From the NCBI RefSeq assembly GCF_900129195.1, contig NZ_FQUY01000002.1, forward strand, positions 62,001 through 126,000: 64,000 nucleotides of DNA, written 5' to 3'. This DNA is from Desulforamulus putei DSM 12395. GTDB taxonomy: Bacteria; Bacillota; Desulfotomaculia; Desulfotomaculales; Desulfotomaculaceae. The stretch's first letter is position 1. The number at the start of each line of letters is the position of its first letter. Made by a program: the position numbers and the translations under genes. Positions 12,070 to 30,700 of the stretch are shown here, piece by piece. The notes below the pieces were generated by a model that searched no databases, was not told where the DNA came from, and saw only the letters and a list, made by a program, of their open reading frames with translations.

Positions 12070-12999
12070 ATGAACGCAGCAATACTCTCGCCCGCGGAAT
12101 ACCTGCAGCAAGGCAACATGGGCCGGCACGAAACCTTTGCCCCGCGTTACGGCTGGCTGGTGAAGGGCTGCCGGGCCGTGCAGGAAGACCCGCACATCTT
12201 CAAAGCATCCAACGCCATAGAGCGCCTAGGGGTGGGTAAAAACATGGTCGCCTCCATTCGCTTCTGGTGTCTGTGCTGTAAACTGATCCAGCCGGCGAAC
12301 GGTGGTGCCTACCAGCTCACAGAGCTGGGGCAAAAGCTGTTCACTGGCCCCAAAGCCTACGACCCTTATCTGGAGGACGAAGGCACCCTCTGGCTGCTGC
12401 ACTGGCAAATTTTTTTACCCCGGCTGGAAGCCGTAGCCTGGCCGCTGGCTTTCAACAAATGCCGGCTCGCCAGCTTTGACATCAAACAACTGGCTCATTT
12501 CCTGCACCAGGCCGGGCAGGCATATGAACGCTGGCAGGAGATATCCTCCCATACTTGGGAGCGTGATGCCTCCTGTATCCTGCGCATGTATGCCGACGAC
12601 CGGGCGAACGGCGATATAGACAGCCCTTTTACCCGGTTGGGGCTGCTCTGCCGGGTGCCGGAAAGCAATCACTTTACCTTCAACATAGCGGAAAAACCCG
12701 AACTGCCACCGCTCATCTTTGCCGCCGCCTGTTTTTCCTATATGCACCACTATGCCGGGGAGGGTGTGCGCACCGTCACCCTGGCAAAACTGAGCTACGA
12801 TTTTAACTCTCCCGGCGTGGTGTTTAAAATACCCGAAAGTGCAGTCGGCAGCCTGTTGGAGCAGGCGGCAGAGGCGTTGCCTTTCTTTTCTTTGGAACAC
12901 ATAGCTGGAAACCTTCAACTGCACCTGCGGGAGAAAAATCTCACCCCCGCCCAGCTCTACTGGCTGGCCCTGGAAAAATACTACAAGGAGTCAAAGTAA
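12070..12999 (+). CDS. sspB: DUF4007 protein, SspB-like (PT modification)
   Basis: 309 residues. The DUF4007 hallmark is GRHETFAPRYGWLVKG (residues 18-33), followed by a winged-helix-like segment ending in YQLTELGQKLF and a helical domain with WLLHWQIFL. As I recall the SspABCD literature, the SspB subunit of the single-strand phosphorothioation writer is a DUF4007 protein that nicks or handles DNA; the two following genes match SspC and SspD. ATG with SD GAGGAG 9 bp upstream. It directly abuts the next gene (stop 12997-12999, ATG 13000). DUF4007 also occurs next to other ATPase/PAPS-reductase pairs, so SspB identity rests on context. Confidence 0.75.
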   Translation: MNAAILSPAEYLQQGNMGRHETFAPRYGWLVKGCRAVQEDPHIFKASNAIERLGVGKNMVASIRFWCLCCKLIQPANGGAYQLTELGQKLFTGPKAYDPYLEDEGTLWLLHWQIFLPRLEAVAWPLAFNKCRLASFDIKQLAHFLHQAGQAYERWQEISSHTWERDASCILRMYADDRANGDIDSPFTRLGLLCRVPESNHFTFNIAEKPELPPLIFAAACFSYMHHYAGEGVRTVTLAKLSYDFNSPGVVFKIPESAVGSLLEQAAEALPFFSLEHIAGNLQLHLREKNLTPAQLYWLALEKYYKESK

Positions 13000-15900
13000 A
13001 TGTCGTTATCCGGCAATTTCCTCAGCAACTACATCCGTTCCGGCGGAGCAGCAGCCCGCTCCGTGCACATAGAGCGGGACAACGGAGCTGTCAACTTGCT
13101 GCAAAATTACCAACTGGGCCCGGCCGGTCAGCAGGTGCTGGGCCGCCTGGCAGCCGCCCTGCAGGGTGAAAAAATAAACGCCTGGTCGCTCACCGGCCCC
13201 TACGGCATGGGCAAATCTGCTCTGCTCAGCTTATTGCTGGCCCTGTGCGGTCCGGCCGCCAGTGAACCCGGCCGCGTGGCCTGGCAGCGGCTGCGTGCCA
13301 GTCATCCGTCCCTGGCAGACCAACTGCGCTGCGGTCTGCAAAATGTATGCGGAGACGCCGGCCTTTATACCATAGCCATCACCGCAGGGTACGAACCAGT
13401 CTCGGCTGCTCTGCAACGGGGCCTGCCCCAAACCAGCCGGGTCAAACAAAACGCCGCTGCGCCATCTGCTCTGCTGGACGGTTACCGGCAACTGCAGCAG
13501 CGGGCCGGTCGTCCCATTTTGCTGGTGCTGGATGAATTCGGCAAGAACTTAGAATACCTGTCCTACCACCCCGACCGGGGCGACCTCTTTATTCTGCAAC
13601 AACTGGCCGAAACCCCCGGCATATTTATCATGGTGTGCCTGCACCAGGCCTTTGAAGAATACGCCGCTGCCCTTTCCCCCGCCCAGCGCCGGGAGTGGGC
13701 TAAAATCCAGGGACGCTTTGAAGACATATCCTTTGTGGAAAACAACGACCATTTGTTATTGCTCATGCGGCGTGCTTTGCAGAAAGAACTGCCGCCTGAC
13801 CTGGCGGACAGAGTGCGGCAATGGGCGCAGCAAGCGGCCGGGCAGGCCCGCCGGTTTGCCCCCCACCTGCCCGCCCTGCAGGATCAGGACACCCTAGAGC
13901 AGCTTTACCCGCTGCAGCCCGTAACCGCCCTGGCCCTGGCGGAGCTTTGCCGTCGCCTAGCCCAGTACAACCGTACCCTTTTTTCCTTTTTGAACAGTGG
14001 CCATCATCTGGCCCTGCCCGCCCTGTTAAACCGCACCCCCCTGTCGGACAGCGGCCCTCTGCCTGCCGTGGGGCTGGATGCGCTCTATGACTATTTTATC
14101 AACAGCGCCACACTGCCATCTTTGGATCGGCCGGAAGCCCAGCGCTGGCTGGAAATTCAAGACATGATCAACAACGCCGGCGACCTGCCCCCGCTGGAAC
14201 AAGCCCTGCTCAAAAGCATCGGCCTGCTCAACCTGCTGGGCAAAGGGGCGGTTTGTCCGGCCAGTGCGGAGGTCCTAAACTCGCTCTTGGAATTATCCGG
14301 CCAGGCCACCCCGGCCCAGGTGCAAAAAGCCCTGCACATGCTGGTGGCGGCGGGCAAACTTCTCTACCGCACCTACGCTGCGGAGTATCGCCTCTGGGAA
14401 GGCAGCGATATTGATATTACTGATGCTCTGCGCCGGCAAAAAGAGCGCCTGGCCTTAAAACCCCTGGAGCAAATACTGCAACAGCACCTGCCTCTTTCTC
14501 CTCTGGTGGCCGCCCGCCATGCCCTGGAAAAGGGCACTGTGCGCTGCTTTGAACGGCGCTGGCTGGAGGAGGCGGCCGTTCATGAGGAACCGGTCCCGGC
14601 TGACGGCTGCGACGGTTTATTGCTGTATTGTTACGGCCTGGCTACGGCGCCTCCAATGTTACCCGCCCGCTGCCGGGACGGGCGGCCCCTGCTGGTGGCC
14701 TACGCCCCCGTCAAAAACGCCATAAAAGAAAAGGCGCTGGAAATCAGCGCCCTGCAAACCTTGCTGACGGAAAGGGAAGAACTGGCCCACGACGCCGTGG
14801 CCCGGCGGGAAATAAAATACCGCCTGCAGGTGGCCGAAACCGCCTTTCGCACGCTGGTAACCAAGGCTTATGCTCCCGGTTCGCCCCATGTCCAGTGGCT
14901 GAGCGAAGGCCGGCCGGTGACGCTGAACAGCAGCCGGGAATTGGGCCGGGAGCTTTCCCGCCTCTGCGATAAAGTGTACAACAGCTGCCCGCACATCAGA
15001 AATGAGATGATCAATTATAACAAACTTTCCAGCGCCGCGGCCAGAGCCCGCCGCGAACTGCTGGAAGCCATGGTTGAAAAGGCCGAGCTGGAAAACCTGG
15101 GAATGAAAGGATTTGGCCCCGAAGTGGCCCTGTACCGCTCCCTGCTTTTCAGCACAGGCCTGCACGTTCCCCCGTTGGGTTCAGGCGGCTGGCAGCTCAC
15201 CCTGCCGGGCAGCGACCCCAGCCTGTATCCCCTCTGGCAAGAAATAGAACATATGTTATCCGGTGATCCTCAGGGCATCAGTGCCTCGGCCGTCCTGGAG
15301 CGTCTGCAGCAGCCTCCCTTTGGGTTGCGCCAGGGGCCGGCTGTCGTTTTTCTCTGCCATTACATACTGGTGAAGGCCGATGAAATAGTGGTTTTCCGGG
15401 AAAACAACTACATGCCTTACTTGAGCGGCGCCACTCTGTCCCTGCTCAGCAAACGGCCCGAACTGTTCATTTTGAAAAAAATTGCTGTAAGCGAACTGCA
15501 GCGCAGTATATTCACCGCCTACCGGAATATTTTACGCCAGGCCAGTATAACCGGCGCCCAAAAGCTGCGCAACCAGTCCCTGCTCACCGTGGTGACACCG
15601 CTGATGAAATTTGCCCAGGGTCTTTCGGCCTATGCCCGTCAGACCCGACAGGTTTCCCCCGCCGCCCGCCGCGTGCTGCTGGCCCTGCAAAATGCTGCTG
15701 ACCCTTTAGAGCTGCTCTTTCATGAACTGCCTGCTGCCCTGCAAATTGATTGGCAGGATGACTATGAACAGGCGGTGGAAGAACTGCAGCAGCGTTTGCT
15801 GGCCGCCCTGCAGGAACTGGCCCGGGCCGACGATATTTTGCAACAAAAAGTGCAGGATATTTTGCTGCAAACCTGGCCGGCAAAAAATTTAGGGCAACTT

Positions 15901-16347
15901 TGTGCTATAATGAAGGAAAAAGTTATTGGTTTGGTAGATATTTGCCGGGATCCGGAACTAAAGCCCCTGCTGGCGGCCCTGCTCCGGCCGGCGGAAGACC
16001 CGGAAAAATGGGCGCGGGGCATTGCCGGCAGTGTGCTGAAAAAACCCTTGGACAGCTGGCAGGACCAGGATTTGCTGCTCTTTGCCGAAATGTTGCCCCA
16101 CCTGGCGACCCGGATGGAGCAGCTGAAACTGCTGCGTGCCGCTGACCGGCCCCAGCACTGCGGCCAGGTGCTGCTCAGCATAAGTACTCCCTCCGGCATG
16201 CGGCGCCAGCTCATTTCTGCCGCCTCTCAACGTGACGGTGAAGTGCAGCGCCGAGTAGCCGAAATTATGGCCCTGCCGCCGGAAAAGGCCCGGGCCGTGT
16301 TGCTGGCTCTGGCCGAGCAAATTTTGCCAGTAGAAAGCGGTGATTAA
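13000..16347 (+). CDS. sspC: Large P-loop ATPase, SspC-like
   Basis: 1115 residues, cytosolic. Walker A is GPYGMGKS (66-73) and Walker B is ILLVLDEFGKNLEYL (Asp178-Glu179). The rest is mostly alpha-helical, rich in Leu/Ala/Gln, with a charged segment near 575-625. The Walker-B 'DEFGK' form is shared with the second large ATPase of this operon (27702-32045) and resembles BrxC/PglY-type ATPases of phage defence. Between DUF4007 and a PAPS-reductase-like gene it fits SspC, the ATPase of the PT writer. It abuts sspB and overlaps the next gene by 8 bp. The function of its ATPase is not settled. Confidence 0.68.
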   Translation: MSLSGNFLSNYIRSGGAAARSVHIERDNGAVNLLQNYQLGPAGQQVLGRLAAALQGEKINAWSLTGPYGMGKSALLSLLLALCGPAASEPGRVAWQRLRASHPSLADQLRCGLQNVCGDAGLYTIAITAGYEPVSAALQRGLPQTSRVKQNAAAPSALLDGYRQLQQRAGRPILLVLDEFGKNLEYLSYHPDRGDLFILQQLAETPGIFIMVCLHQAFEEYAAALSPAQRREWAKIQGRFEDISFVENNDHLLLLMRRALQKELPPDLADRVRQWAQQAAGQARRFAPHLPALQDQDTLEQLYPLQPVTALALAELCRRLAQYNRTLFSFLNSGHHLALPALLNRTPLSDSGPLPAVGLDALYDYFINSATLPSLDRPEAQRWLEIQDMINNAGDLPPLEQALLKSIGLLNLLGKGAVCPASAEVLNSLLELSGQATPAQVQKALHMLVAAGKLLYRTYAAEYRLWEGSDIDITDALRRQKERLALKPLEQILQQHLPLSPLVAARHALEKGTVRCFERRWLEEAAVHEEPVPADGCDGLLLYCYGLATAPPMLPARCRDGRPLLVAYAPVKNAIKEKALEISALQTLLTEREELAHDAVARREIKYRLQVAETAFRTLVTKAYAPGSPHVQWLSEGRPVTLNSSRELGRELSRLCDKVYNSCPHIRNEMINYNKLSSAAARARRELLEAMVEKAELENLGMKGFGPEVALYRSLLFSTGLHVPPLGSGGWQLTLPGSDPSLYPLWQEIEHMLSGDPQGISASAVLERLQQPPFGLRQGPAVVFLCHYILVKADEIVVFRENNYMPYLSGATLSLLSKRPELFILKKIAVSELQRSIFTAYRNILRQASITGAQKLRNQSLLTVVTPLMKFAQGLSAYARQTRQVSPAARRVLLALQNAADPLELLFHELPAALQIDWQDDYEQAVEELQQRLLAALQELARADDILQQKVQDILLQTWPAKNLGQLCAIMKEKVIGLVDICRDPELKPLLAALLRPAEDPEKWARGIAGSVLKKPLDSWQDQDLLLFAEMLPHLATRMEQLKLLRAADRPQHCGQVLLSISTPSGMRRQLISAASQRDGEVQRRVAEIMALPPEKARAVLLALAEQILPVESGD

Positions 16348-17185
16348 AATGCTGATAAAGAATGTCCATGAGCGCCATATTCTGGCCCTTTCCGGGGGCA
16401 AGGACAGCGCGGCCCTAGCCGTGTATATGCGGGAAAAGTATCCCCACCTGCCCCTGGAATATGTCTTTACCGACAGCGGTTGTGAACTGCCCGAAACCTA
16501 CGAGTACCTGGACCGCATCCGAGCCGTACTTAATATTGACATAACAGTGATTAGGCCGGAGAAGAGCTGGGATAGCTACTGGTCGTTGGTAAAGGTGAAG
16601 AAAACACCAGCCGGTGTTTTTACTTATTTACCTTCGCCGAAACAGCGCTGGTGTACTGAGGTTTTAAAGTTGATTCCTTATGAAAAGTGGATAGAAAGTA
16701 GTTATCCCGGTTGTAACATTATAAGTTATGTTGGTTTGCGAGCCGATGAAAAACGAGAGAGAAAAGGGTTGATATCAAAAAATAGAAAAATATTTACCTG
16801 TTTCCCTTTTATTGAAGATGGGTTAACTTATGATGATATTAAACACTTACTAGAGAAATCTGGTTTAGGTTTTCCAGCTTATTATCAATGGAGAAAGCGT
16901 TCCGGTTGTTATTTTTGTTTTTACCAAACCAAACGTGAATGGTTGGGGCTATATGAACATCACCCGGAACTTTATTATAAGGCAATGAGTTACGAAACAG
17001 TTATACATGAAGCGGGAGTGCGTTTCACATGGTGTGATGACATGAGTTTGAGTGAATTATTGGAGAGAAGAGAAGAAATATTACGTCAGCTTCCCTTAGA
17101 TGATACTGACAATAAGTCAGTGGAAAAATTATCCAATATTTTGGGAAAAGTATTGGTTGAAAGAGGGGTGTTGCAATGGGTATAG
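16340..17185 (+). CDS. sspD: PAPS-reductase-like sulfurtransferase, SspD/DndC-like
   Basis: 281 residues of the ATP-pyrophosphatase (PP-loop)/PAPS reductase superfamily: SGGKDS at 18-23. Cys105 is in KQRWCTEVLK, and Cys190/Cys193 in SGCYFCFYQTKREW, positions where DndC-type enzymes bind an Fe-S cluster. The predicted role is to activate the DNA backbone with ATP and insert sulfur. It is shorter than DndC (about 500 residues) and close to SspD size. GTG 16340 overlaps the ATPase gene; ATG 16349 is an alternative. From about residue 74 to its end the DNA becomes AT-rich (30-45% G+C in sampled lines against 60-68% around it), while the PP-loop part is GC-rich, so the gene looks chimeric. Confidence 0.8.
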   Translation: MIKMLIKNVHERHILALSGGKDSAALAVYMREKYPHLPLEYVFTDSGCELPETYEYLDRIRAVLNIDITVIRPEKSWDSYWSLVKVKKTPAGVFTYLPSPKQRWCTEVLKLIPYEKWIESSYPGCNIISYVGLRADEKRERKGLISKNRKIFTCFPFIEDGLTYDDIKHLLEKSGLGFPAYYQWRKRSGCYFCFYQTKREWLGLYEHHPELYYKAMSYETVIHEAGVRFTWCDDMSLSELLERREEILRQLPLDDTDNKSVEKLSNILGKVLVERGVLQWV

Positions 17186-17700
17186 ATAAATTTTTAAATG
17201 ATATGGAAATGCAATTAATTAGGGGTAATTTTAAACCACATAAGTTAATTATGCTTCTGGTTGTGCTTGACCTGCTTAAAGAAAAGCGTGTTAATGAAAT
17301 ATATTATGATGACTATCTAAAGAGCAGGTTTACTTTTTATTTCAATTTATTTTCTGATGAAAGCGACCGCAACAGGCCTTATAACCCATTTTTTCATTTA
17401 CAATCCACCGGGTTTTGGAAGTTAATGCCTATAAAAGGACGAGAAGCCTATTTTGTAGATGTGAAAAAAATTGGTGGGCCTAATGAACTGACTCAAAATG
17501 TATCGCATGCTTATTTGGATGAAGCTGTATTTCGAGATTTTATTGACCAAATAAAGTCGGAATTGTTAAAGAAAAGAATTGTAAATATTCTTGAGAGGTA
17601 CAAGATACTATGTAGCAAAACGAAAGAACCAGCTTTACAAGCATACAATGCTCATAATGTTTCCCAACCAGCCACGCTCTATGACCCCTCAATTATGCCA
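16560..17700 (+). other. AT-rich patch inside the GC-rich PT operon
   Basis: Hand counts of 60-base lines give 32% (16741), 45% (16981), 37% (17041), 30% (17101), 35% (17221), 32% (17341) and 33% (17581) G+C, against 63% (13201) and 68% (18361). The patch spans the last three quarters of sspD and the first ~155 codons of the next gene. It ends in the low-complexity linker between the reader domain and the ATPase. It looks like a recombined segment. Confidence 0.75.
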
Positions 17701-19623
17701 ACAGCTTGTCAGAGCGATCCAGCGCCTACCTCGCTGGTAAAACAGACAACTCATCCAGCATCCACCCTAATTACACATCATGCTTTTGACAGTCCCAAGG
17801 TGCCCATGGGCAATAAGACCACTTATGATCAGGCCAAAGCAGACCTGTCCGGCGCGCCGCCCCACCCTGCGGTCGGGGTAGCGGAAACATTTGCGTCCTA
17901 TAATATGGTTAATGAGTTTGTGGACTACCTTAATACTCTGAGCAATACCACGGCAGCCAATGAAAATGCCTTGGCGGAAAGTCAGCTTAACAGCCGCTTT
18001 TTCCCCAGGGTGCAGGTGAAACATCCCCTGGAGGATTATATATACAACCAGTTAATGAATGGCTGCGGCAAAGTTGTGCTGACGGGCAATGCCGGTGACG
18101 GTAAAACCACCCTTGCCTTTGCGGTGCTGCAAAAACTGGGTTTTGCAGGCACGCCGTCCTGGCGGATAGAACTGCCCGAAAAAAAGCTGACAGTGATTAA
18201 AGACATGAGCGAACTGCCGGCTGACGAGCGGGGCAAGGTGATGCGGGAAATTTGGCAAAATGAACACTGGCGCTATTTGCTGGTATCCAATACCGGTACC
18301 CTGTTGGAAGCAATGCAGTGGCTGAAAAATTCCCAGCCCGGCATATGGGAGGAGCTGCTCTCGGCCATGCGTGCCGGCGAGCCGGGCCTGCTGGGTGAGC
18401 GGCTGCTGCTGATTAATGTGGGCAATATCAACAATATTGAGCCGGCGCTGCAGGTGCTGCAGCGTATGATTGAAGAAGAAAACTGGCAAAAATGCAGCCG
18501 GTGTGCCCTGGCGCAGGATTGCCCCATTTATTTCAATGTGCAGCTGTTGCAGCAAGGCTGGAAAACGGTGCGGCAGCGCCTCTGGTTGCTTTACCGGCAC
18601 ATGTATGAATACGGCTGCCGCCTGACCATGCGCCAGATGACTGCCCACCTGGCCTATGCCCTTACCGGTGGATGCAATTGCCGCCAGGTGGCAAAAATGA
18701 CGGTGGGCAGTGGTCAGAATAAGCTTTGGCGCGCGCTTTTTTACAACCGCTTTTTCGGTGATGACGGTTGGCAGGAGGATGGGGCGGCCAGCCAGCTCTA
18801 TGCCGTGCGCCAGGTGCGTCAGGCCGGTTACGGACAGGTTTTGCAACCGGCGGTGGAACAACGACTCTGGCTGACGGAGGAAGGCAGATGGTCCGATTAT
18901 GCTTTGGCGGAAAGTCTGTGCAAAGAATTAAAAAGCAATAAACAGGGAGAAAAGGTCGCCTACCGGCGACAGTTGCGCAGGCTGCTGTATTTCTGGGGTA
19001 CCTGTTTTAGTGAGGTGGGTGAGCAGGAAAAAGCGGACAAGAACTTTATCTGCGATTTTCTGGATTCTCCGGCTCTGTTTGATTATTTGCATATGCTGGA
19101 AAATACTTCAGATCACTTAATGGTGGATTATAAGAAGAAAATTGTGCATGTTTTACAGGAGTATTTTGCCGGCCTGCCCTTGTTGGAAAAAAGGGACAGA
19201 GAGAGGTTGTATATTCCCTTAAGCCGGGCCGATCAGGCTGCTGTGGTGCAGTTTTTGTTGGCTCGTTTTCGCCTGGCCGATTTTGAAGTGGAATCGCGTG
19301 AGGGTTTCCGGGCGGACCATTTTTTAAACCGAAAAGCCCTTTACCTCTGCTTGAAAAGGAACAAGAATTTAGATTTGGAGCTCAGCCTGCCCTTTCTGGA
19401 TTATGTGGCCCGCCGCTACCGGGGAGAAATGACGGCCGATTTGCACGCTTTTTATGCCAACCGCCTGAAGCGTTTTAAATCCCAGCTCATCAGTTATTAC
19501 CAGGAGCAGCAGGCGGAGGAGGACGACGAATTAGAAGTGGGCGAGCTTTTGTACCTGCTGGCTGGCAAAACCCGCAGGGTACGGCTGGAATTTGCGGCCG
19601 GTGAGTTGGAGGTGTCTTTATGA
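17176..19623 (+). CDS. DptF/SspF-like ATPase fused to an N-terminal sulfur-binding (SBD)-like domain
   Basis: 815 residues. Residues 1-~145 match the N-terminal module of McrA-type 'phosphorothioated-DNA-binding' HNH nucleases: PHKLIMLL (21-28), RPYNPFFHLQSTGFWKL (67-83) and LDEAVFRDF (114-122), with no HNH after it. A Pro/Thr/Ser-rich linker (~150-235) follows. The ATPase has Walker A GNAGDGKT (304-311) and a Cys cluster C440-x2-C443-x5-C449-P as in DptF-type proteins. Inference: the N-terminus reads PT DNA and gates the restriction ATPase. It overlaps sspD by 10 bp and ends in ATGA with the next gene. The N-terminal codons are AT-rich, the rest GC-rich. Confidence 0.72.
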   Translation: MGIDKFLNDMEMQLIRGNFKPHKLIMLLVVLDLLKEKRVNEIYYDDYLKSRFTFYFNLFSDESDRNRPYNPFFHLQSTGFWKLMPIKGREAYFVDVKKIGGPNELTQNVSHAYLDEAVFRDFIDQIKSELLKKRIVNILERYKILCSKTKEPALQAYNAHNVSQPATLYDPSIMPTACQSDPAPTSLVKQTTHPASTLITHHAFDSPKVPMGNKTTYDQAKADLSGAPPHPAVGVAETFASYNMVNEFVDYLNTLSNTTAANENALAESQLNSRFFPRVQVKHPLEDYIYNQLMNGCGKVVLTGNAGDGKTTLAFAVLQKLGFAGTPSWRIELPEKKLTVIKDMSELPADERGKVMREIWQNEHWRYLLVSNTGTLLEAMQWLKNSQPGIWEELLSAMRAGEPGLLGERLLLINVGNINNIEPALQVLQRMIEEENWQKCSRCALAQDCPIYFNVQLLQQGWKTVRQRLWLLYRHMYEYGCRLTMRQMTAHLAYALTGGCNCRQVAKMTVGSGQNKLWRALFYNRFFGDDGWQEDGAASQLYAVRQVRQAGYGQVLQPAVEQRLWLTEEGRWSDYALAESLCKELKSNKQGEKVAYRRQLRRLLYFWGTCFSEVGEQEKADKNFICDFLDSPALFDYLHMLENTSDHLMVDYKKKIVHVLQEYFAGLPLLEKRDRERLYIPLSRADQAAVVQFLLARFRLADFEVESREGFRADHFLNRKALYLCLKRNKNLDLELSLPFLDYVARRYRGEMTADLHAFYANRLKRFKSQLISYYQEQQAEEDDELEVGELLYLLAGKTRRVRLEFAAGELEVSL

Positions 19624-21329
19624 GTGGATTACCACCCCTGTTTCCCGGTACCCTGTCCATAACGGAGATGGATAAAGGTGAGTGGAAAGAGAATAAAAAC
19701 CCGGCCATGCGCCTTTTTGGCAAACGCTTTTTTATTGACCAGCGGGCCATGGACTTACTGGTTGAGTTTTTGGCGGTGGCGCTGGCGGAAAAGAAAATTG
19801 CAGCGGAAGGCGAGAAAACAGGCAGGACGCCGCTCTGGAACGCTGACGCGCTGCCTCCTTTGTCGGACTTGCGCAGCTGGCCTGCGGCGGCCGCGCTTTT
19901 TTACCGGCTGCCGGTGTACCTGAATTTAAAGCTGTTTGCCTTTTTCCGGCTCACGCCGCCGGATAAGCGCCACCCGGTGCATGAGGAACAGTACAGAGAG
20001 CTGGGCCGCAGATTGCGTGAAAAGCCCGGGCTGGCCGAAGGGGGCAAAGTGGATAAAGCGGTGGAGATACTGAAACAACTTCTGGGCGGACTGCAGGGGG
20101 CAGGTTTTGACCGCGTCTGGTCGGCCCGCACCTTTTATCCCTTAGCGCCGGCTCTGTTAATGCAGGAAACACTTTTTAATTTTTCGACGGCAAAATCCAA
20201 GAAAGTTAATGGATGGGAAGATATTATTGATTATTTCAATATCTATTTTAGCGTGTCAAAACACCGTTTCCTTGCCCGCGGTGGAGAATTGCTTTATTTA
20301 CAATTATGCAACCTTTTTCGCACCGACCCGGACGTTTTTGCCACCTGGCTGGCAGAATGGCGGGCCTTGATGATACTGCGGCCCGAGGAGGCCGACCTGG
20401 AAAAGCTGCATGAAAACCTAAGCCGCGAGCTGAAAAAGCTGGGCGAAGGCCGGGTGAGCAGAATACTGCATAAGCTGGCCGACTACATTGAAAATCTGGA
20501 TCCGGCAACCAGCCGCAAAGTGACGGAGAAAGTTTCCAAATCCGAACTGAAGTGCGAATATTGTGCGGCTGAAACCTGGCCGGAAACCTACTTGTTTGCT
20601 GTGGAGCTTTATCGCCTGCTGCAGGCCGCTCTGGATCCGGCTGAACGTTTGGACATGCTCATGCTGCTCTGTGTTCTGCAGGTGCTGCGCACCCTGTGCG
20701 CTCAGAGTGCCCGTTATGGCGGGAGGGAGGGGCAGACTGTTTCCCTCAGCAACCCTCTGGGTTATGCCTGGCTTTTCACTCCGGGCCGAGCTTCGCCCGC
20801 CCTACGTTTGGCGGCGGCGGGCAACCTGCAAGTTGTGCAGACCATGATTTACACCGCCCTGCGTCATCCTGCTCTTAAGCAATACGTGCAGCGGGCGGTT
20901 AAAGAAGTGATGGGCAAAAAAGATGAGGAAGCTTTAAAGAAAGAAGAGAACAAGCTGTGGCGGGAAGCCGATGACAAATATGGCTACAAGCTGTTGCTTT
21001 CGCTGGGCAAACAGTCGGGCATTATTGTGCCCCGTACCGGCCCGGGAGCACGTTTTGTGCTGGGGGAGAGGCTTTTGCGCCTGCTGGTGCTCACTGTGCT
21101 GCCGCCCGGACAGCGCTGCACTTATCCGGAATTTTTGCAGCAAGTGTATTTGCACTTCGGCATAGCTCTGGAAGGCAGGCAGCTTTTGGAAGCGCTGCGT
21201 TTTACAGGCCAGTTTGTGGGCCATGATTTTGCCGGCCAGGATAAGGACTGGCCAGTAGCCATGCTGCGGGCGGCCGGCTTTTTGGAGGAGCTGTCGGATG
21301 CTTTTTCGCTGGTGGTAAATCCTTTTTAG
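19620..21329 (+). CDS. DptG/SspG-like PT-restriction subunit (unrecognised fold)
   Basis: 569 residues with no catalytic motif I recognise. It is mostly helical, with one Cys pair C312-E-Y-C315 and a Lys/Glu-rich stretch near 430-445. It lies between the DptF-like ATPase (4-bp ATGA overlap) and the HerA-like protein, the position DptG (DndG) has in the restriction trio of Dnd systems; DptG members also lack obvious enzymatic motifs. The assignment therefore rests on order, size and company. ATG 19620, no separate SD site needed because of the coupling. Confidence 0.55.
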   Translation: MSGLPPLFPGTLSITEMDKGEWKENKNPAMRLFGKRFFIDQRAMDLLVEFLAVALAEKKIAAEGEKTGRTPLWNADALPPLSDLRSWPAAAALFYRLPVYLNLKLFAFFRLTPPDKRHPVHEEQYRELGRRLREKPGLAEGGKVDKAVEILKQLLGGLQGAGFDRVWSARTFYPLAPALLMQETLFNFSTAKSKKVNGWEDIIDYFNIYFSVSKHRFLARGGELLYLQLCNLFRTDPDVFATWLAEWRALMILRPEEADLEKLHENLSRELKKLGEGRVSRILHKLADYIENLDPATSRKVTEKVSKSELKCEYCAAETWPETYLFAVELYRLLQAALDPAERLDMLMLLCVLQVLRTLCAQSARYGGREGQTVSLSNPLGYAWLFTPGRASPALRLAAAGNLQVVQTMIYTALRHPALKQYVQRAVKEVMGKKDEEALKKEENKLWREADDKYGYKLLLSLGKQSGIIVPRTGPGARFVLGERLLRLLVLTVLPPGQRCTYPEFLQQVYLHFGIALEGRQLLEALRFTGQFVGHDFAGQDKDWPVAMLRAAGFLEELSDAFSLVVNPF

Positions 21330-21358
21330 TCAAGCCGTTGGGAAAAGGAGAAAAGACC

Positions 21359-24300
21359 ATGTATTTTTTGGTAAAAACCGTTCTAAACTGGTTGGAAAGG
21401 CAGTTAACCGCTGTGACGGCGGAGCAAAATAAGTTAATTTTTGTTTTACCTTCCTGGGATAGCTCTTTGTTGTTTTATTTGGGCAGACAACTAACAGAAC
21501 TGGTTGCCCGCCAGCCCCGTTCCATTCGGTTGCAGTACAGCGTGGCCTGCCGCTTAGGTAAGGAATGGGAACAGGGTACACCCGCCCAGCGGAGCGACCT
21601 GGAACAGATAAGGAAGATGAACTGGTACAACGAGGGGGACAATTTGACCGAGCAGCGCAATTTGTTGCCCGGATCAGAAGAACTGCTGCTGATTGTTCTG
21701 GCCGGGGCGGATCATATTACCGACCGGCACAGCCTGCAGGATTTTTACCACTTGGATCAGCAGGCGTTGTGGCGGGAAGCGCTTCCCAAAAGTACCCGCC
21801 CCTGGGTGGAAGAAAAATTTGCGCGCAGTCTGGGCGACGAGGCGGTGGTCTGGGAGGAACTGGCTAGCGCTGTACTGGACTATATGTATGAGCGGGGCCT
21901 GGCCGATTTGCCGGGCATCAGCGCTTATCTTGATGGGTTGGATTTAAGTTTTGCCAGCAGCGGGCAGGAAGCCTGTCGGCTGCTGCTTAGCAATTTGTCC
22001 CATTTTGAATTGCCCGCCCTGTCTGGGTTGGTGTTAAAAGCCAGGTTGAAGTCCAAGAGACGGCAGGATTGGCGTAAGCAGTGTGGGTTTTATTTTCGGC
22101 AGGCACAGGAATTTTTCAGCTATAAGGCGTTTTTGTCCCCTGCAGAAAGGGAAAAGTGTCTTGAAAATATTCAAAAGCTGCTGGCCCGGCCGGATGATAT
22201 GGAGAGTTTGCAGGTCCAGGAATGGCAACTGGGTGCATTTGCTGAAGTAGAAGAGCTGGTTCAGGCTGTGGCGCAATACATTGGCGAGCCTTCACCTGAA
22301 CTGGCGGATAAGCTGCGCCGCGTGGACTTTGTTCTGTTGTGCGATGGAATTTTGAAGTATAAACCCAGAGCCAAAAAACTTGATGAGGATGGAGAGGGGC
22401 CTTTTGAACCTCCCAAGAAGAAAACGCCCACCAGGGTGGAAGGCCTTTTGCCGGAGGTATTTTTGCGCGCTATCTGGTTGACCTTGCGGGATTTGAAAAA
22501 AGAGTGGCCGAGTGTTCAGCTGGAGGATATTGATAAATTGAGCTTGCAAAGTGTGCTCTTTAAGCATGAATTTGCCCCGGCCCAAGATGAGGAAGAAAAA
22601 GATACCGATGGGCGCGCCAAGACTTTTTTGCAGCGCTTACTGGGCGGGATAGATGGGTGGCTGGCCAACAGCTTACAGGTGAGCGCAGGCGGCCAGGAAC
22701 TGAAAGTGGATGTCAGCCTTTGCCCGGCCGGTAAAGCGGAACAGCATATGACCTATCTATATCATGCTACCGGCCAGCCGGGGCTGCAGTTTTCCTGTAC
22801 TTTTGTAAGCAAGGACAGAGAAGAGTTTAAGCGGGAATTTTTTTGGCCGTTGCCCTTAACCCATCCCTGCCGCCTGCTGGTATTGCTGCTGGAGTGGGCT
22901 TATGAACATTTGGAGCGAGCGCAGGGGCTGCCGCTGTTTGTTCTGCCGGGGGCAAACGGTTTGGGCCGGGCTCGCCAGGAAGAGGAAGCCTGCCGCATGT
23001 TGATGCGGGCGCTACAGCACGAGCAAAGGCAGGTTTATGATCTACTTGCCGGGGTTGGTCGGGAGCTAAATGGTAAGCCCTGGCAGGAAGTGAAAGCTCT
23101 GGTGCTCCAGTACTGGCGGTTTATAGTGGCCACTTATGAGAGGGGACTTTTTTCCACGCTGGCCGCGCGGGGAGAAAAGGCCATGGAATATGAAAACATG
23201 GCCAAAGCTTACCTCCAGGCTCTGGAGGAATGTATGGAGACCGAAAGTGCAGTCGGTAAGGATGCGGCACTCTTGTTACTCAAGGCTTTTTTAATAGTGG
23301 ACAGCACTTTTCTCAAGCAGCCCGATCCGGTGTGGGAAAAGGATTTGCCTGCCGCCTTGGTTACGCCACTGCATCCGGTGATGCTGGAAATGCTTTATTA
23401 TCAGTTTAGTTTTTTACTGGAAAGTCTGTGTTATCTAATGGAAAAGGTTTTTGCCGGCAGCGAGGATGTGGATTTGCAGGGTGCAACCTGGGAACGCATG
23501 GTGGAGCTGGCGGCGGTGCGGCGGCCGCTGGGCGCGGTGTTCAGTCAGCGGCGGCTGGAGACCGCGGGGCGTGATTTTGCTTACTTACAGGTGTTGGGCC
23601 GGGGGGGTACGGACAGTGCCGGGCTGGAATTGCTGGATTTTGTAGAAGAGGAGATACCGGAGGAGGAAGAGAGCAAAATAGAGCTTTTCCGCCGGGGCCG
23701 GTTGGCAGAGCTGATAAAACGCGTTTTAATGGATTACCGGGAAATGCATCCTTATGCCGGTGATGGACTGTCCCTAGCGGTTTATGCCGGTCACTCGCTA
23801 CAGCAGATCATTGCCGGTGTGGACGGTTTTTTGCGGGATCTGCTAAAAGAGCGGGAAGAGAATGGGCTGGAGCAGTACGCCTTGCGGATTACGGTTTTTG
23901 CCAGCACGCGCAGCGATTGGGCGGTGCGGTGTTGGTTGAAGGCCTGGCAGGAGAGCTGGCATCAGGGTGCCGATGAGGAAGAAGGCGACCATTTAAGTCG
24001 TTGTCGTTTGACATTGCACTACCGCATGGTGGGCGAGGATGAGAATTACACAGATTTGAAGAATATGCTGGCGCAGAATAGTTTCGATTTAGTCTTGTTG
24101 AGTGACTTTTTCCAGGACAGTGAGAGCGAGTTTTTGATTTTGCCCCGGAGATTATCTATGCCGCTGGAAAACTACCGCTTTTTTCCAGTTTTGGAGAAAG
24201 TGTGCTGCCGGAACAAGAGTGCCGCAAGCGGTTATAAGCGGCAGCGGGTGCTGACCAACCTGCGCTTTAAACGAGGTGCGGCTCACAGTCAGTTGGTAGC

Positions 24301-26839
24301 CCGGCTGCAAAACCTTGGAGGTAAAGGTGATAGATTTTTGCTATTGGAAACACGCCGTATCGGTGGTTTTCAGGAGGTGTTGAAGACTGCTCACACCTGC
24401 AGTGTGTGGGTGGTATGTATTGACCCGGCCATGGATGAGTATGTGATTACTACTCTGCGGAACGACAGTGGCAATAGCCCGGATATCATCGGTTTTGGCA
24501 CCGGTGTGGGTTCGCACGGCGAAGCAAATTTTACTATTTCTACGACCCGCTTTTATTTAAGCGAAATTCAAAAGAAACTTGCCCGCTGGGTGATGAAGCT
24601 GTTTCCCGGCAGCTTAACAGAGATCCAGGCCGGGCAAATAGCCAGGGCTCTATGCTGGCGGGATCCGGAAGAGCGGCCTTATTTGAGCGGGCTTTCCTTA
24701 ATCAAGTCCACCGGGCCGGAAAAGTTTTTCCGCGAGTTTATTGCCGGCAGTATGGTGCGGTTGTTGCTGAAGCGACAGGATGAAGGATTTTTCAGTGATG
24801 TTCTGGTCTCGCTGGATGCCTTTCATCATTGGTTTGCCCAAAATGACCGGCGTCCGGATTTTCTTCACCTGCGGGCCTGTCTTGTGAATGGCCGGGTGTT
24901 GGTGCGGGCCCGCCTGCTGGAGTGTAAACTGGGCGGGGAAAGTGAGGAGCATTTACTTAAGGCCCGTGAGCAGTTGAGAAATGGTTTGCAGCGCTTGGTA
25001 AGCCGCTTTATGCCATGTCCGCCGGGTGAGAAGGCGGGTGTGAAGGACAGGCCCGACCAGCGCTACTGGTGGCTGCAGTTGCACCGCTTGATTGCCAGTC
25101 ACGGGGTCAGCGGCGAACAGTACAATGAAGTGCTGGCGGCGCTGGAGCTTTTAAGTGAGGGTTCTTTTGATATAGAATGGCAGGCGGCTGCTTTCACTTT
25201 TTGGACCGATCGGCCGGGAGATGTAATGCAGCACGAAGTGCTCTTTGAGGTGGAACTGCCGGGCAGCAATATATTGCCTGTACTCGCCTTCCAGTGCGGG
25301 CGGGATTTCATCCAGCGGCTGTGCCTTAAGGGAGAGCGGCCTGCGGAGCTGGCAGACTGGCCGGCCTGCCGGTTTATAGGCCGGTCGTTGCAGGATGATG
25401 CGGGAGCGGTTGATGAGTCAGCTGTCCCGGCTTCCCCGCTTCCGGATGATGGGATGAATGCTCCCCCTGCTCCACCGGGGATGGAAGCCGACACTGCATT
25501 AACATCCTCCGGGCAGGAAAGGAAAGCCGGGACTGAATGCCATCCGGTGGCAGGGGCAGTAGATAACGACCAATATACCGATTTTACAACCCCGGCTGTT
25601 TTGGTGGCTGCTTCGTCGGATAGCCCCGCTGTGCCCGGGGAAGAAGTGCTGCCGGCATATGACCAGCCATCCGTGCCGCAGCGTATATTGCTGGGCACCA
25701 GGGCTGGCGGTCAACCTGTGTATTGGGAGTACGGCCATCCGGGCTTGCCCAACCGGCACATGTTGATTTTTGGCGCTTCGGGCACAGGTAAAACTTATGC
25801 CATCCAGTGTCTGCTGGCCGAACTGGGCCGGTGCGGGGTAAGCAGTTTGATTGTGGACTATACCAATGGTTTTACCAATGCCCAGCTGGATAAGCTTTTT
25901 GTACAGTATTTTAACCCCCGGCAGCATGTGGTGCGCCATCAGCCGCTGGCCATCAACCCCTTCCGCCGCCAGCGTTACTTGATGGACGGCATTGAGTTAT
26001 TTGATACCCCCGGCGATGTGGCCCAGCGCATCACTAATTTATTTGCCGCCCTGTTCAGCAATTTAGGGGAACAGCAAAAGGCCACTTTGCACAGTGTGAT
26101 CCGGGAAGGTGTGCAGCAGGAAGGGGATAATTTCACTCTGGCCCGTTTACTGGAAAAGCTGGAGGAACTCTATGCCACCGGGGGGACGGGCGCTAATTAT
26201 TGCCTCTCCCTGTTGAATTTACTGCGTCCCTTTGTGGATACCAATCCACTGGGGGCGGGCAGCAGCAGCTGGGAGGAACTTTTTACCGATTTGCAAAACC
26301 GCTGCCATGTAATACAACTGGTAGGCTTTGCTCCCGATATGGCCCGTTTGATCACGGAATTTGTGCTGCTGGATCTGTATTGGTATTACCGTTCCTGCGG
26401 CAATGAGGCCCGGCCTCGTCCGGTGGTGCTGGACGAGGTGCAGAACCTGGACCACGCCGAGGGTGGTTCGCTGGCCGGTATGCTGCGCGAGGGGCGCAAG
26501 TTTGGCCTTTCTCTGCTGCTGGCCACCCAGACTTTGAGCAACTTGAAGCAGGAGGAGCGCGACCGCCTGTTCCAGGCCGCCCACAAGCTTTTCTTCCGTC
26601 CGGCCGATACCGAGCTGCGCTCTTTTGCAAATATTATTGCCCATGCCACTGGCGAGCGGCCGGAGGATTGGGTGGACAGGCTGGCCAACCTGGGCCGGGG
26701 CGAGTGCTATTCGCTGGGCTATGTCTGGCGTGAAAGCGACGGTAAACTGAAGGGTAACCATTATGTCAAGATCAAGGTGACCGCTCTGACGGAGCGTTTG
26801 GCAAGGGGTGATGATGGTGTGCCGGATGTTGCCCATTAA
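21359..26839 (+). CDS. Giant HerA/FtsK-type ATPase, DptH/SspH-like
   Basis: About 1826 residues. The first ~1350 are large helical/mixed regions without motifs I can name. A Pro/Ala/Ser-rich linker (~1360-1440) leads to a C-terminal HerA/FtsK-like motor: Walker A GASGTGKT (1472-1479), Walker B VVLDEVQNLDHAEGG (Asp1692-Glu1693) and a sensor-like LLATQTLSNL. DptH of the Dnd restriction complex has the same layout and size. ATG 21359 has AAAGGAG 8-12 bp upstream; the longer frame from TTG 21338 lacks a site. Predicted to translocate on DNA in a complex with the two preceding products and to damage unmodified phage DNA. Confidence 0.72.
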   Translation: MYFLVKTVLNWLERQLTAVTAEQNKLIFVLPSWDSSLLFYLGRQLTELVARQPRSIRLQYSVACRLGKEWEQGTPAQRSDLEQIRKMNWYNEGDNLTEQRNLLPGSEELLLIVLAGADHITDRHSLQDFYHLDQQALWREALPKSTRPWVEEKFARSLGDEAVVWEELASAVLDYMYERGLADLPGISAYLDGLDLSFASSGQEACRLLLSNLSHFELPALSGLVLKARLKSKRRQDWRKQCGFYFRQAQEFFSYKAFLSPAEREKCLENIQKLLARPDDMESLQVQEWQLGAFAEVEELVQAVAQYIGEPSPELADKLRRVDFVLLCDGILKYKPRAKKLDEDGEGPFEPPKKKTPTRVEGLLPEVFLRAIWLTLRDLKKEWPSVQLEDIDKLSLQSVLFKHEFAPAQDEEEKDTDGRAKTFLQRLLGGIDGWLANSLQVSAGGQELKVDVSLCPAGKAEQHMTYLYHATGQPGLQFSCTFVSKDREEFKREFFWPLPLTHPCRLLVLLLEWAYEHLERAQGLPLFVLPGANGLGRARQEEEACRMLMRALQHEQRQVYDLLAGVGRELNGKPWQEVKALVLQYWRFIVATYERGLFSTLAARGEKAMEYENMAKAYLQALEECMETESAVGKDAALLLLKAFLIVDSTFLKQPDPVWEKDLPAALVTPLHPVMLEMLYYQFSFLLESLCYLMEKVFAGSEDVDLQGATWERMVELAAVRRPLGAVFSQRRLETAGRDFAYLQVLGRGGTDSAGLELLDFVEEEIPEEEESKIELFRRGRLAELIKRVLMDYREMHPYAGDGLSLAVYAGHSLQQIIAGVDGFLRDLLKEREENGLEQYALRITVFASTRSDWAVRCWLKAWQESWHQGADEEEGDHLSRCRLTLHYRMVGEDENYTDLKNMLAQNSFDLVLLSDFFQDSESEFLILPRRLSMPLENYRFFPVLEKVCCRNKSAASGYKRQRVLTNLRFKRGAAHSQLVARLQNLGGKGDRFLLLETRRIGGFQEVLKTAHTCSVWVVCIDPAMDEYVITTLRNDSGNSPDIIGFGTGVGSHGEANFTISTTRFYLSEIQKKLARWVMKLFPGSLTEIQAGQIARALCWRDPEERPYLSGLSLIKSTGPEKFFREFIAGSMVRLLLKRQDEGFFSDVLVSLDAFHHWFAQNDRRPDFLHLRACLVNGRVLVRARLLECKLGGESEEHLLKAREQLRNGLQRLVSRFMPCPPGEKAGVKDRPDQRYWWLQLHRLIASHGVSGEQYNEVLAALELLSEGSFDIEWQAAAFTFWTDRPGDVMQHEVLFEVELPGSNILPVLAFQCGRDFIQRLCLKGERPAELADWPACRFIGRSLQDDAGAVDESAVPASPLPDDGMNAPPAPPGMEADTALTSSGQERKAGTECHPVAGAVDNDQYTDFTTPAVLVAASSDSPAVPGEEVLPAYDQPSVPQRILLGTRAGGQPVYWEYGHPGLPNRHMLIFGASGTGKTYAIQCLLAELGRCGVSSLIVDYTNGFTNAQLDKLFVQYFNPRQHVVRHQPLAINPFRRQRYLMDGIELFDTPGDVAQRITNLFAALFSNLGEQQKATLHSVIREGVQQEGDNFTLARLLEKLEELYATGGTGANYCLSLLNLLRPFVDTNPLGAGSSSWEELFTDLQNRCHVIQLVGFAPDMARLITEFVLLDLYWYYRSCGNEARPRPVVLDEVQNLDHAEGGSLAGMLREGRKFGLSLLLATQTLSNLKQEERDRLFQAAHKLFFRPADTELRSFANIIAHATGERPEDWVDRLANLGRGECYSLGYVWRESDGKLKGNHYVKIKVTALTERLARGDDGVPDVAH

Positions 26840-27668
26840 CTTTCACAAAACCTTTTTACCGGAGCGGCGCCTTTTGGCCGCCCTGCTGGAGTACGCCGCA
26901 CTAGGCGGGGAGGGCAGTTACCAGGAAATTTCCCAGGCTACCAGCATACCCATGGGGCGGTCTACGGGCAAGGTGCCGGCTATTTTGGACTACGCCCGCG
27001 GCATGAATTTGGTGACACTGGGTAGGTCTTCCGGGTCTGGCAAAAAAAAGCCCCGGCTTACCGGTTTTGGTCAGGCGGTGTATACCGGCGACCGCCATTT
27101 AGGACGTCCCTTGGTACAGTGGTTGGCGCACATGCATCTCTGTCTGCCGCGGGGTGGAGCGGCGGCCTGGCACCTGGTATTTGTCAGCGGGCGCGCTTCT
27201 CTGGGCAGCCGCTTTTCTGCCGCCCAGGTGGAGCAGTACCTGGTGGAGCATTTCGGGCCGGGACGCAGCCGCACCGGGCCGCTCCTGCGCACCTACCTGG
27301 AGGATGCCGCCCTAGGCCGGGCCGGAGTTCTGAGCCAGCGCCAGGGAGAGGTGGTGCGCTGCCGGGCACCGCTGGACGTTCAGTGTGCCCTGCCCTATGC
27401 CGCCTTTGTACTGGAACTGTGGGAAAGGTTTTTCTCCGGCCGGGGGCAGATAACGGTGGATGAGCTGGTAGCAGAAACGGGCTGGCCGGATATTTGCCTG
27501 TGGAGCTGCCAGGAGTTGGAGCAGGCTTTGGAATGGATGGAGCAGTCCGGGCTTTTAGCCCTGGACAGGCAGCGGCGGCCCTGGATTTTGGAAAAGCGGG
27601 CGACTGCCACAGAAGCCTGGCAGGAGCTGGGCCGCTGGTTGGAGGAAGCGGCGCCGGCAGGCGGTTAG
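26808..27668 (+). CDS. Second DUF4007-like protein
   Basis: About 280-286 residues. It resembles the SspB-like protein in plan: FHKTFLPERRLLAALLEY near the N-terminus (compare HETFAPRYGW), a winged-helix-like ISQATSIPMGRSTGKVPAILDY, then LTGFGQAVYTGDRHLGRPLVQWLAH. I see only remote similarity, so it may be a diverged DUF4007 member or a relative. Starts GTG 26808, ATG 26811 and ATG 26814 are all possible behind AAGGGG. It overlaps the HerA-like gene by 32 bp and precedes a second large ATPase, repeating the DUF4007-ATPase order seen at the operon's front. No enzyme motif visible. Confidence 0.6.
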   Translation: MMMVCRMLPINFHKTFLPERRLLAALLEYAALGGEGSYQEISQATSIPMGRSTGKVPAILDYARGMNLVTLGRSSGSGKKKPRLTGFGQAVYTGDRHLGRPLVQWLAHMHLCLPRGGAAAWHLVFVSGRASLGSRFSAAQVEQYLVEHFGPGRSRTGPLLRTYLEDAALGRAGVLSQRQGEVVRCRAPLDVQCALPYAAFVLELWERFFSGRGQITVDELVAETGWPDICLWSCQELEQALEWMEQSGLLALDRQRRPWILEKRATATEAWQELGRWLEEAAPAGG

Positions 27669-27701: not shown

Positions 27702-30700
27702 GTGATGGTGGTGCCCTGGCAGGATGTTGCTTTATTACGGCAGGATCTGTTGTTTAACGGGGCGGTGGCATTAAGCTGGCGGGAGGAAAACCCATCTTTA
27801 GCCCAAAAGGCAGCGCGGCATTTTATTTTCCACGGTCCGGCCGACAGCGCCGCCGGCCTTACCGATACAGTCAGTTTTACGGCCGAGTTGCTGGAACGAT
27901 TGACTGGCGGTGGAGCCGACGACCCATTTATGATGGCCGTGGCCGGTTACGGTACTGGTAAGTCCCACCTGGCGGTAACCTTGAGCGCTTTGCTGACTGC
28001 GCCCCAGGGGTCCCTGGCCGGGTCAATCCTGCGCAATATGGAGGTAGCAGACCGGGAGCTGGCCTTGCGGGTGAGAAGACAGCTGGCTGAACTTGCGCAG
28101 CCCTATCTGGTGGTGGCCATCAACGGCATGCGCGATTTTGACCTGGGCCAGGAGATCATCCGCCAGGTGCTGCGCGCTTTACAGCGGGACGGCATCAGCA
28201 CGTCGGTGCTGGATAATCTGCGGCCCCGCTTTAAGAGCGCCATAAATTTCGTGCGGGCTTTTTATATCCACCTGCGAGAGGATTTTGCCGCTCATTTTGG
28301 TGCCTGTGGCAGTGCGGAGCAGATTATTTCTCTTTTGCAGGAACAGGATGAGCTGGCTTTTCGCCGGGTAAATGAGATATACGAGCAAAAGATGGGGGCG
28401 TCCATTCACACGGTGGGTCAGGAATCGCTGCCCGATTTCATCCGCGTGGTGCAGGAACATTACTGCGGGCCAGGTCGCCCCTACGCTGGCTTGTTGATTA
28501 TGTTTGACGAGTTTGGTCGCTATCTGGAGTTTGCCGTGCAAAAACCCCACGTGGCCGGTTCCGGGGTGCTGCAGCAGCTTTTTGAAGCGGTGCAGGCTCA
28601 CGGTGAGCGGGTTTTTCTGGTGCTTTTCATTCAGTATGAGTTGCGCGCCTATATTTCCCGCGTGGCACCCGAGCTGCGGGATGAGCTGGACCGCTATGTG
28701 ACCCGCTATGACGGGGTGTCCCGCTACCGCCTTTCCAGCAATCTGGAAACATTAATTGCCAGTTTGCTGGAAAAGAAAGACCAGGCGGAGCTAAAGCGGC
28801 GGGTGGGCCTGAATCAGGCGGTGTATGAGCAATGCTGGCGACTGTTGCAAAAAACGCTGCCGGGTGGTATTAGCCGTTCTCTCTGGCGGGAACAGGAAGA
28901 CTTTTACCGGGTAGTCTGCCAGGGCTGCTGGCCGCTGCATCCCCTTTCTACTTGGCTTTTACAGCGCCTGGCGGCGGGCAAGGAACTGCAGCAGCGCTCG
29001 GCCATCACGCTGCTGGCCGGAGCTTATAGCTCTATGGCTGGGCAGGAGCAGCCAGCGGAAGCGCTGCTGCGGCCGGTGGATTTGCTCACCGAGGATTTGC
29101 TGGCCGAGTTTGTGGCCGGCGAGCGCCTAGGCGGACGGGGAGCGGCGGCCCAAGCTTACCAGGAGGTTTGCCACAAGTATGGGCAGCGCTTTACGGCGGA
29201 AGAAAACGCGGCGCTGCAGGCCGTGCTGCTGGTGACTCGGTTAGGCTTACAAATAGTGGAGCAGGCCGACTACCTGGCGCTGCTGGCTCAGTGCTGCAGC
29301 TTGCCAGAGGAAAGGCTGACGGCTGCGCTGGCGGTGCTGCAGGGCGAGTACGGCGTCTTGAGCTGGAATGCCGCCTTGTGCCAGTATGATATTGTGGCCG
29401 ACGCCGTGCCGCGCCAGGCATTTCTGGATCTCATGGCCCGCCGGGCGCAGGCCGTGGGGGCGCAGCGGCAGGTGGAGATTTTTCACCGTCATCTGGCTAA
29501 CTGGCTGGACAAAAAAGAGCTTCCGGTGGATTTCGCCCTGGAAAACAATATTTCCACGCCGGAATTTAAGTACGAGGTGGTGTTTAGCAGCATTACCCTG
29601 CTGGGGGCCCAGTTAGAGTTTGCTTTTGGATCCTGGCAGGAGGCGCTGGCGCCGGACAAGAGCAAGGGCCGGTTGATTTATTGTTATGTAGGGCCGGAAA
29701 GCAATCTGGAACTGGTACGCCAGGAAGCACAGCGGCAGTTGAACGCCCTGCTGGCCCGGGCAGGTGCCGCCGGCGGTTACGGCGCGCCGCTGGCGGTGGT
29801 ATTTTTGCCCGACAGCCAGGGCGAGCTGGGACGCCTGATGGCCGAATACTGGGTTTTGCAGGAAGAGATGAGCTCGGAGGAAATGAACCGTTACGGCCAC
29901 TTTATCCGGGAAAGGCAGGCTTCTTTGCTGCAGGAGATGACCGGTTGTTTTGACAGGCTGGTGGAGTGTCGGCAGTTTTTGACGGCTACCAGTGAGTCGG
30001 TGCCTGGAAACAGTTTGTTCCAGGTCTTGAGCAATTTGTTCGTTGCCGTCTACCCCGCTCGCATTCCTTTTCCCTTTGACGGATTTGCCACGGTGCGCGG
30101 TAATGCGGCCAACGACAGCTTTACTTTTACCCGCCAGCTTTTTCAAGGCAATTTTAATCGGGATTGGATTGCTGCTTTGGTCAGACATAGTAAAAACCGA
30201 GCAGAGACGCTGTTTGTTCAAACTTGGAAGGCGTTGGACGATGCCGGCCAGGTAAGATTAAAGCCGGGGCATCCCGCATTGCGTCGTCTTTTTGACTGTT
30301 TGGATAACTGGTTGGCAAAGGGGGAGGTGGACTGCCCGGCGTCTTTGGACCCGGTGGGACCCTGTGAACGGGAGGGGACGGTCGGCAGTGACAGTGCAGG
30401 TACCGGCGGCTTACTATCTCTGGGCCAGGCTGTGCGGGCGTTTTGTGCGCCGCCCTTTGGCTTAAATCTGGCTTCGGCCGGGCTGGTGCTGGGTTTATAT
30501 TTCAGCCGCCGCCTTACCAGCTTGCAGCTTCTGTACAAAGGCCAGCCGGTGAAAGTGGCAGATTGGCTTTCAAGGGCCTTTGCAGGCAAATTTTTCGATC
30601 TGGTTGTGCTGGAGGATACCTATTTTTGCCGCTTCTCCCAGCAGGACATTTCTGAATGGGAAAAGTTGCTTAATGATTGGGAGCTGGTGGAGGCGCTCGA

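Follow-up and report, generated by a model that had tools for sequence, protein, structure and literature searches.

Introduction

In the type IV restriction enzyme ScoMcrA, the sulfur of phosphorothioate (PT) DNA is held by H116, R117, Y164, P165, and A168 of the sulfur-binding domain (SBD), and mutation of H116, R117, or P165 impairs or abolishes PT binding (PMC6224610). Binding is lost altogether in the R117A and P165N variants, and A168H is tolerated; most homologues carry a lysine at the position of R117 (PMC6224610).

Among F-G-H restriction complexes, SspFGH damages DNA without PT and is toxic to cells without the writer or PT (PMC8092258), and PT represses ATP hydrolysis by DndFGH, with the result that the complex cannot translocate on self DNA (PMC11662687). 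Published proposals for self-recognition by DndFGH and SspFGH have invoked either the triple-wHTH G subunit or PT density. The sections consulted of a 2024 survey (PMC10853773) describe domains fused to the N-terminus of DndF, among them a wHTH alone and a wHTH-NERD-inactive kinase-active kinase series, treat such fusions as co-effectors, and suggest triple-wHTH DndG as the PT discriminator. The same survey states that the SBD is a wHTH, though in another section than the one dealing with the DndF fusions, and nowhere in the consulted text is the DndF wHTH called a PT reader.

The ssp locus and its SspF protein

The 64,000-nucleotide stretch of Desulforamulus putei DSM 12395 DNA analyzed here (the window) holds an operon that is predicted to be an SspBCD-SspFGH PT-based defence system (Table 1). 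Its genes run sspB, sspC, sspD, sspF, sspG, and sspH, followed by genes for two divergent proteins, one with DUF4007 and the other an SspC-like ATPase; the sspBCD writer is complete, as are sspG and sspH, and relatives show the same order. The SspH-like protein has the PD-ECK nuclease residues D1174, E1195, and K1197, which are kept in 64/65 (D), 65/65 (E), and 65/65 (K) homologues, and the HerA Walker motifs are kept too. Because the divergent SspB-like and SspC-like pair after sspH persists in most relatives, the restriction module looks like one of five genes, not three. Elsewhere in the window, at 7629-11082, two overlapping ORFs resemble the halves of a single helicase, possibly through a frameshift, whether genuine or introduced in assembly.

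Table 1. Features of the ssp operon, in window coordinates.
Feature	Position	Strand	Basis
sspB (DUF4007)	12070..12999	+	Pfam 2.9e-79, PADLOC 2.6e-85
sspC ATPase	13000..16347	+	PADLOC SspC, E = 0
sspD, short PAPS-reductase-family sulfur transferase	16340..17185	+	PADLOC SspD 9.4e-90
Sulfur-binding domain (SBD), SspF residues 1-150	17176..17625	+	sequence matches and AlphaFold model
H22 and K23 codons (equivalents of ScoMcrA H116, R117)	17239..17244	+	HMMER alignment to 5zmo
N70-P71-F72-F73-H74 codons	17383..17397	+	HMMER alignment to 5zmo
Disordered linker, residues 151-232	17626..17871	+	pLDDT < 50
SspF P-loop ATPase core	17911..19623	+	PADLOC SspF 5.6e-41
Walker A of SspF core	18085-18108	+	nearly all invariant
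CxxCx5C of SspF core	18493-18522	+	
sspG	19620..21329	+	PADLOC SspG 2.2e-14
sspH/DndH-like, PD-ECK nuclease then HerA translocase ATPase	21338..26839	+	PADLOC DndH 1.1e-57, SspH 1.1e-13
Second, divergent DUF4007 (SspB-like) protein	26808..27668	+	Pfam 1.4e-4; conserved neighbour in relatives
Second, divergent SspC-like ATPase	27702..32045	+	PADLOC SspC 5e-17; conserved neighbour in relatives

The fourth gene, sspF, is an 815-aa ORF (17176-19623, + strand) that starts with ATG and shares 10 nt with the end of sspD. The sequence-only reading with which this analysis began had seen here an ATPase with a Walker A and a CxxCx5C cluster behind an N-terminal module from which the HNH of McrA-type nucleases was missing. 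Each part of that description is borne out: the motifs PHKLIMLL (residues 21-28), RPYNPFFHLQSTGFWKL (67-83), and LDEAVF (114-119) are followed by Walker A GNAGDGKT (304-311) and CxxCx5C (440-449), and the ORF, in which we find no HNH, continues instead as SspF. Six PADLOC SspF models match it, the models being 525-607 positions long and beginning near residue 246, so that PDLC02795 covers residues 246-785 (5.6e-41) and residues 1-245 are covered by none. No PADLOC DndF model matches at E 0.01, whereas the SspF models do. For the core, sequence comparison gives no solved relative and fold comparison no significant match. In a full-length model both the N-terminal domain and the ATPase core are confident, with the 82 residues between them (151-232) at very low confidence; this linker lies where relatives carry a NERD-pseudokinase-kinase series.

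A sulfur-binding domain at the SspF N-terminus

Residues 1-145 had been read as the PT-binding N-terminal module of McrA-type enzymes, and the searches point the same way. Among 177,635 PDB sequences, the sole phmmer hit is SBDHga1 (8h0l, 5.2e-21). The NCBIfam model PT-DNA_restrict (NF045808) matches residues 16-122 (1.6e-8, 34.1 bits), which is the SBD part only; the score falls far below the 180-bit whole-enzyme cut-off because the HNH part is missing, as expected, and the ORF is thus not one of the PT-dependent McrA-type restriction endonucleases that NF045808 defines. A profile built from 44 relatives finds 8h0l (5.1e-37), ScoMcrA (9e-11), and SprMcrA (3e-5) among solved proteins, and its one other match (E 0.45) is weak and probably due to chance.

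Consistent with these matches, an AlphaFold2 model of the domain (pLDDT 96.4, pTM 0.90) places SBDHga bound to PT-DNA at the top rank in Foldseek (6.6e-10). By VIA-align the Z-score is 17.8 for SBDHga (2.9 A over 143 residues), 11.5 for ScoMcrA, and 11.4 for SprMcrA, the solved SBDs after SBDHga spanning 11.5-10.9. Comparison of such a model with the SBD had been set beforehand as a check on which the reading could fail; no SBD-unlike fold is seen, and the solved SBDs are the best matches. We therefore assign residues 1-150, on sequence and model together, to the PT-DNA reader family of ScoMcrA, SprMcrA, and SBDHga.

The alignment to 5zmo places P71 at ScoMcrA P165, the pocket floor, N70 at the Y164 position, and H74 at the A168 position. 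H22, K23, and P71 are the only invariant columns among 44 SBDs; no other sequence argument speaks as strongly for retained sulfur recognition. Over a wider set of about 54, alanine replaces the pocket proline in three (L041, L079, L107). The pocket had been placed around residues 68-81, a range that does contain the central proline P71 but leaves out the invariant H22 and K23.

One could nonetheless take the domain for an ordinary winged helix, used for DNA binding or protein interaction, in which sulfur recognition has been lost and which only aids DNA binding by the complex. The fold is indeed wHTH-like, the first unrelated VIA-align match being to Cdc6/ORC winged-helix domains at Z 9.1; the survey, in the sections consulted, files the domain as a wHTH and the DndF N-terminal domains as co-effectors (PMC10853773); and the Y164 position is an asparagine here. 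That position, however, is not conserved among SBD homologues, and Y164M strengthens ScoMcrA binding (PMC6224610). Given that the three residues held invariant in the family are those of the sulfur pocket, and that no SBD is seen where a writer is readably absent (below), we consider such a loss of function improbable.

Distribution of the fusion

When one genome was scanned for each species, 305 SspF-core relatives emerged, of which the best 80 were read; these are the top-scoring ones, not a random sample, and many come from metagenome bins. In 47 of these 80 the SBD is either fused to SspF or supplied by an adjacent ORF of its own. The loci with an SBD, within the same set, span more than ten phyla and include Bacillota, Chloroflexota, Bacteroidota, desulfobacterial groups, Verrucomicrobia, Acidobacteria, Cloacimonadota, Elusimicrobiota, Gammaproteobacteria, and others. 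The earlier reading had left aside whether known F subunits carry this domain; within one broad subfamily of SspF it occurs commonly, and the 2024 survey does list a wHTH on DndF.

Two architectures occur, with about ten switches between them on the SspF tree: a short SBD-SspF form and a long SBD-NERD-pseudokinase-kinase-SspF form of ~1,500 aa, whose inserts are a NERD nuclease domain, then a kinase-like one in which HRA replaces HRD, and a second kinase domain. A representative of the long form, at about 1,500 aa, lies at L021:14867-19393, and similar ones occur in other loci; the NERD and tandem kinases of these proteins resemble PglW of type 2 BREX (PADLOC PglW 5.6e-69).

The domain is also found off SspF. 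In two loci (L050, L096) it forms an ORF of its own, lying between sspD and the SspF core, in L045 it shares one ORF with NERD and the kinases apart from the core, and in G093 sspBCD is followed by an SBD-HNH protein at the same site after sspD. These versions, with the SBD alone, on HNH, on SspF, or ahead of NERD-kinases, give the impression of a reader cassette that can be reused at the site behind sspD. At L030:6641-7513, a 290-aa SBD-HNH nuclease directly follows sspBCD and replaces SspF; a PT-reading nuclease beside its own writer would be expected to be suicidal, unless PT restrains the nuclease or merely licenses it.

Searches of viral contigs and phages gave no close relatives, and the plasmid search returned only distant HNH endonucleases. 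A plasmid SspF without the SBD, sought as a control, had no match.

Association with the PT writer

Where upstream DNA was readable, loci were sorted by whether an sspD of under 450 aa, here called short, immediately precedes. Of those with such an adjacent writer 39/43 carry the SBD, as opposed to 0/22 others (Fisher 1.2e-13, a p-value that ignores descent). Those 22 comprise ten with a long SspD, two with a writer on the opposite strand, and ten with no writer in at least 4.5 kb. Wherever writer status can be read, then, the SBD is found only beside PT writers. The long-SspD loci lie in one clade, so that the association is confounded by descent, and only three independent pairs on well-supported branches differ in the writer. 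In these the direction is mostly as expected (2-3 pairs, with none against); the phylogenetic test is thus consistent in direction and underpowered.

Of the four short-sspD exceptions, L056 holds an SBD in decay (7102-7396), interrupted by stops and deleted across the pocket-proline region; it lies between a cysteine desulfurase gene and a bare SspF, in a metagenome bin in which assembly error is possible. The genomes of the other three (L048, L063, L092) have no SBD anywhere at E 1e-5, and neither does that of L076. SspF without an SBD stands beside PT writers in all ten long-SspD loci (10/10) and in L076, L097, L048, L063, and L092, which argues against a general need for the SBD in discrimination. 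The proposal that a reader on the ATPase explains how such complexes tell self from phage DNA can thus hold at most for the subset bearing the SBD.

Gene distances and base composition

The SBD might instead serve the writer, tethering SspF to PT sites such that the complex or SspBCD keeps or surveys the marks, with SspH not directly controlled. The SBD is encoded immediately after the writer genes, and its distances show a small partial correlation (0.28) with those of SspB. Yet the domain is fused to the restriction ATPase rather than to a writer subunit, and its distance matrices are closest to the SspF core (0.62-0.70), which leads us to regard a writer-side role as highly improbable.

Third-codon-position GC dips in this part of the operon. 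In the window it is 41 for sspD and 29-30 for the SBD (16340-17640), against 61-73 in the rest of the operon; across phyla the SBD segment lies below the SspF core in 48/50 loci (median -15 points, p 1e-14), and sspD below sspC in 40/44. This shared low GC prompted the idea that sspD and the SBD are exchanged together as a matched writer-reader cassette, which we reject, the partial correlation of SBD with sspD distances being only 0.02 with all genes included; a one-off transfer of such a cassette is likewise set aside, the dip being present in nearly all loci. The dip might stem from a promoter inside the operon, from weak selection on codons, or from frequent exchange. The SBD tree has two groups. 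We do not take these as two independent recruitments by SspF, as the AU test does not reject a single ssp-linked group (p 0.75).

Discussion

The explanation we favor, and hold to be probable, is that the SBD, on a flexible tether at the N-terminus of SspF, reads PT, and that PT capture by this domain would act as a brake on SspFGH. SspB, SspC, and SspD, together with a cellular cysteine desulfurase, would put PT marks on host DNA, and SspF, SspG, and SspH would form the restriction complex, SspH being a putative HerA translocase with a PD-(D/E)XK nuclease. Upon capture of the sulfur of a PT site by the SBD, the complex would be held, or its ATP-driven translocation repressed, and self DNA would be spared. 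On unmarked phage DNA there would be no such restraint, and SspH would nick or cut. An SBD on the ATPase subunit would, we infer, supply the PT sensing directly; that PT binding should have the sign of a brake is suggested by analogy with the F-G-H complexes tested so far.

The opposite sign is the main rival to such a brake. PT binding by the SBD could activate or dock the complex, host PT sites serving as loading platforms for attack on unmarked DNA in the manner of SspE, which is active only with PT and does no harm in its absence (PMC11662687). The confinement of the SBD, wherever writer status can be read, to the neighborhood of PT writers would fit this, as would the SBD-HNH protein that follows sspBCD in G093, since it could hardly coexist with a writer if PT simply directed cutting. 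On the other hand, both SspFGH and DndFGH, where tested, are toxic without PT, the ATPase of DndFGH is repressed by it (PMC8092258, PMC11662687), and the published work considered here contains no PT-activated F-G-H complex. We judge activation or docking to be unlikely. Its specific form, with PT as a positive landing mark at which the SBD parks the SspFGH motor to capture unmarked DNA, the sulfur arming the system, seems to us quite unlikely; if true, it would mean an F-G-H complex regulated like SspE and opposite to those tested so far. Another candidate for the discriminator is SspG, whose DndG counterpart, a triple-wHTH protein, is proposed for PT discrimination in the consulted sections of the survey (PMC10853773).

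If the brake on SspFGH is real, the complex senses the cell's own marked DNA directly through SspF. In any case, a structurally understood reader on the ATPase, whose pocket persists in more than ten phyla and which is linked to the writer, offers a concrete place to look for self-recognition, and casts the wHTH that had been recorded for DndF proteins in a new light. What this analysis adds is the identification of the domain as an SBD, the invariance of its pocket, and its linkage to the writer; the architecture itself was partly catalogued earlier.

Comparison with known systems

The nearest solved structure, SBDHga in complex with PT-DNA (8h0l), has the same fold and the same PHK and P pocket residues, but was solved as an isolated SBD, whereas the copy in the window is the N-terminal domain of SspF. 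ScoMcrA and SprMcrA (5zmo, 7cc9) share fold and pocket positions with it as well. In these type IV restriction enzymes, however, the SBD targets an HNH nuclease to PT-DNA, while here it sits on an ATPase without HNH, in a complex that would be expected to spare PT-DNA.

As for the operon, the SspABCD-SspFGH system of Vibrio anguillarum FF-93 (PMC8092258) likewise combines sspBCD with F, G, and H, and SspF matches the PADLOC models; the text of that paper mentions no SBD. The long relatives found here have the same domain order as the wHTH-NERD-inactive kinase-active kinase DndF in the consulted portion of the survey (PMC10853773). SspE and DndI, finally, are PT-sensing, NTPase-coupled nucleases, as the SBD-SspF complex may be, but they sense PT by a tyrosine in a hydrophobic cavity of their N-terminal NTPase (DUF262) domain and not by an SBD (PMC11662687).
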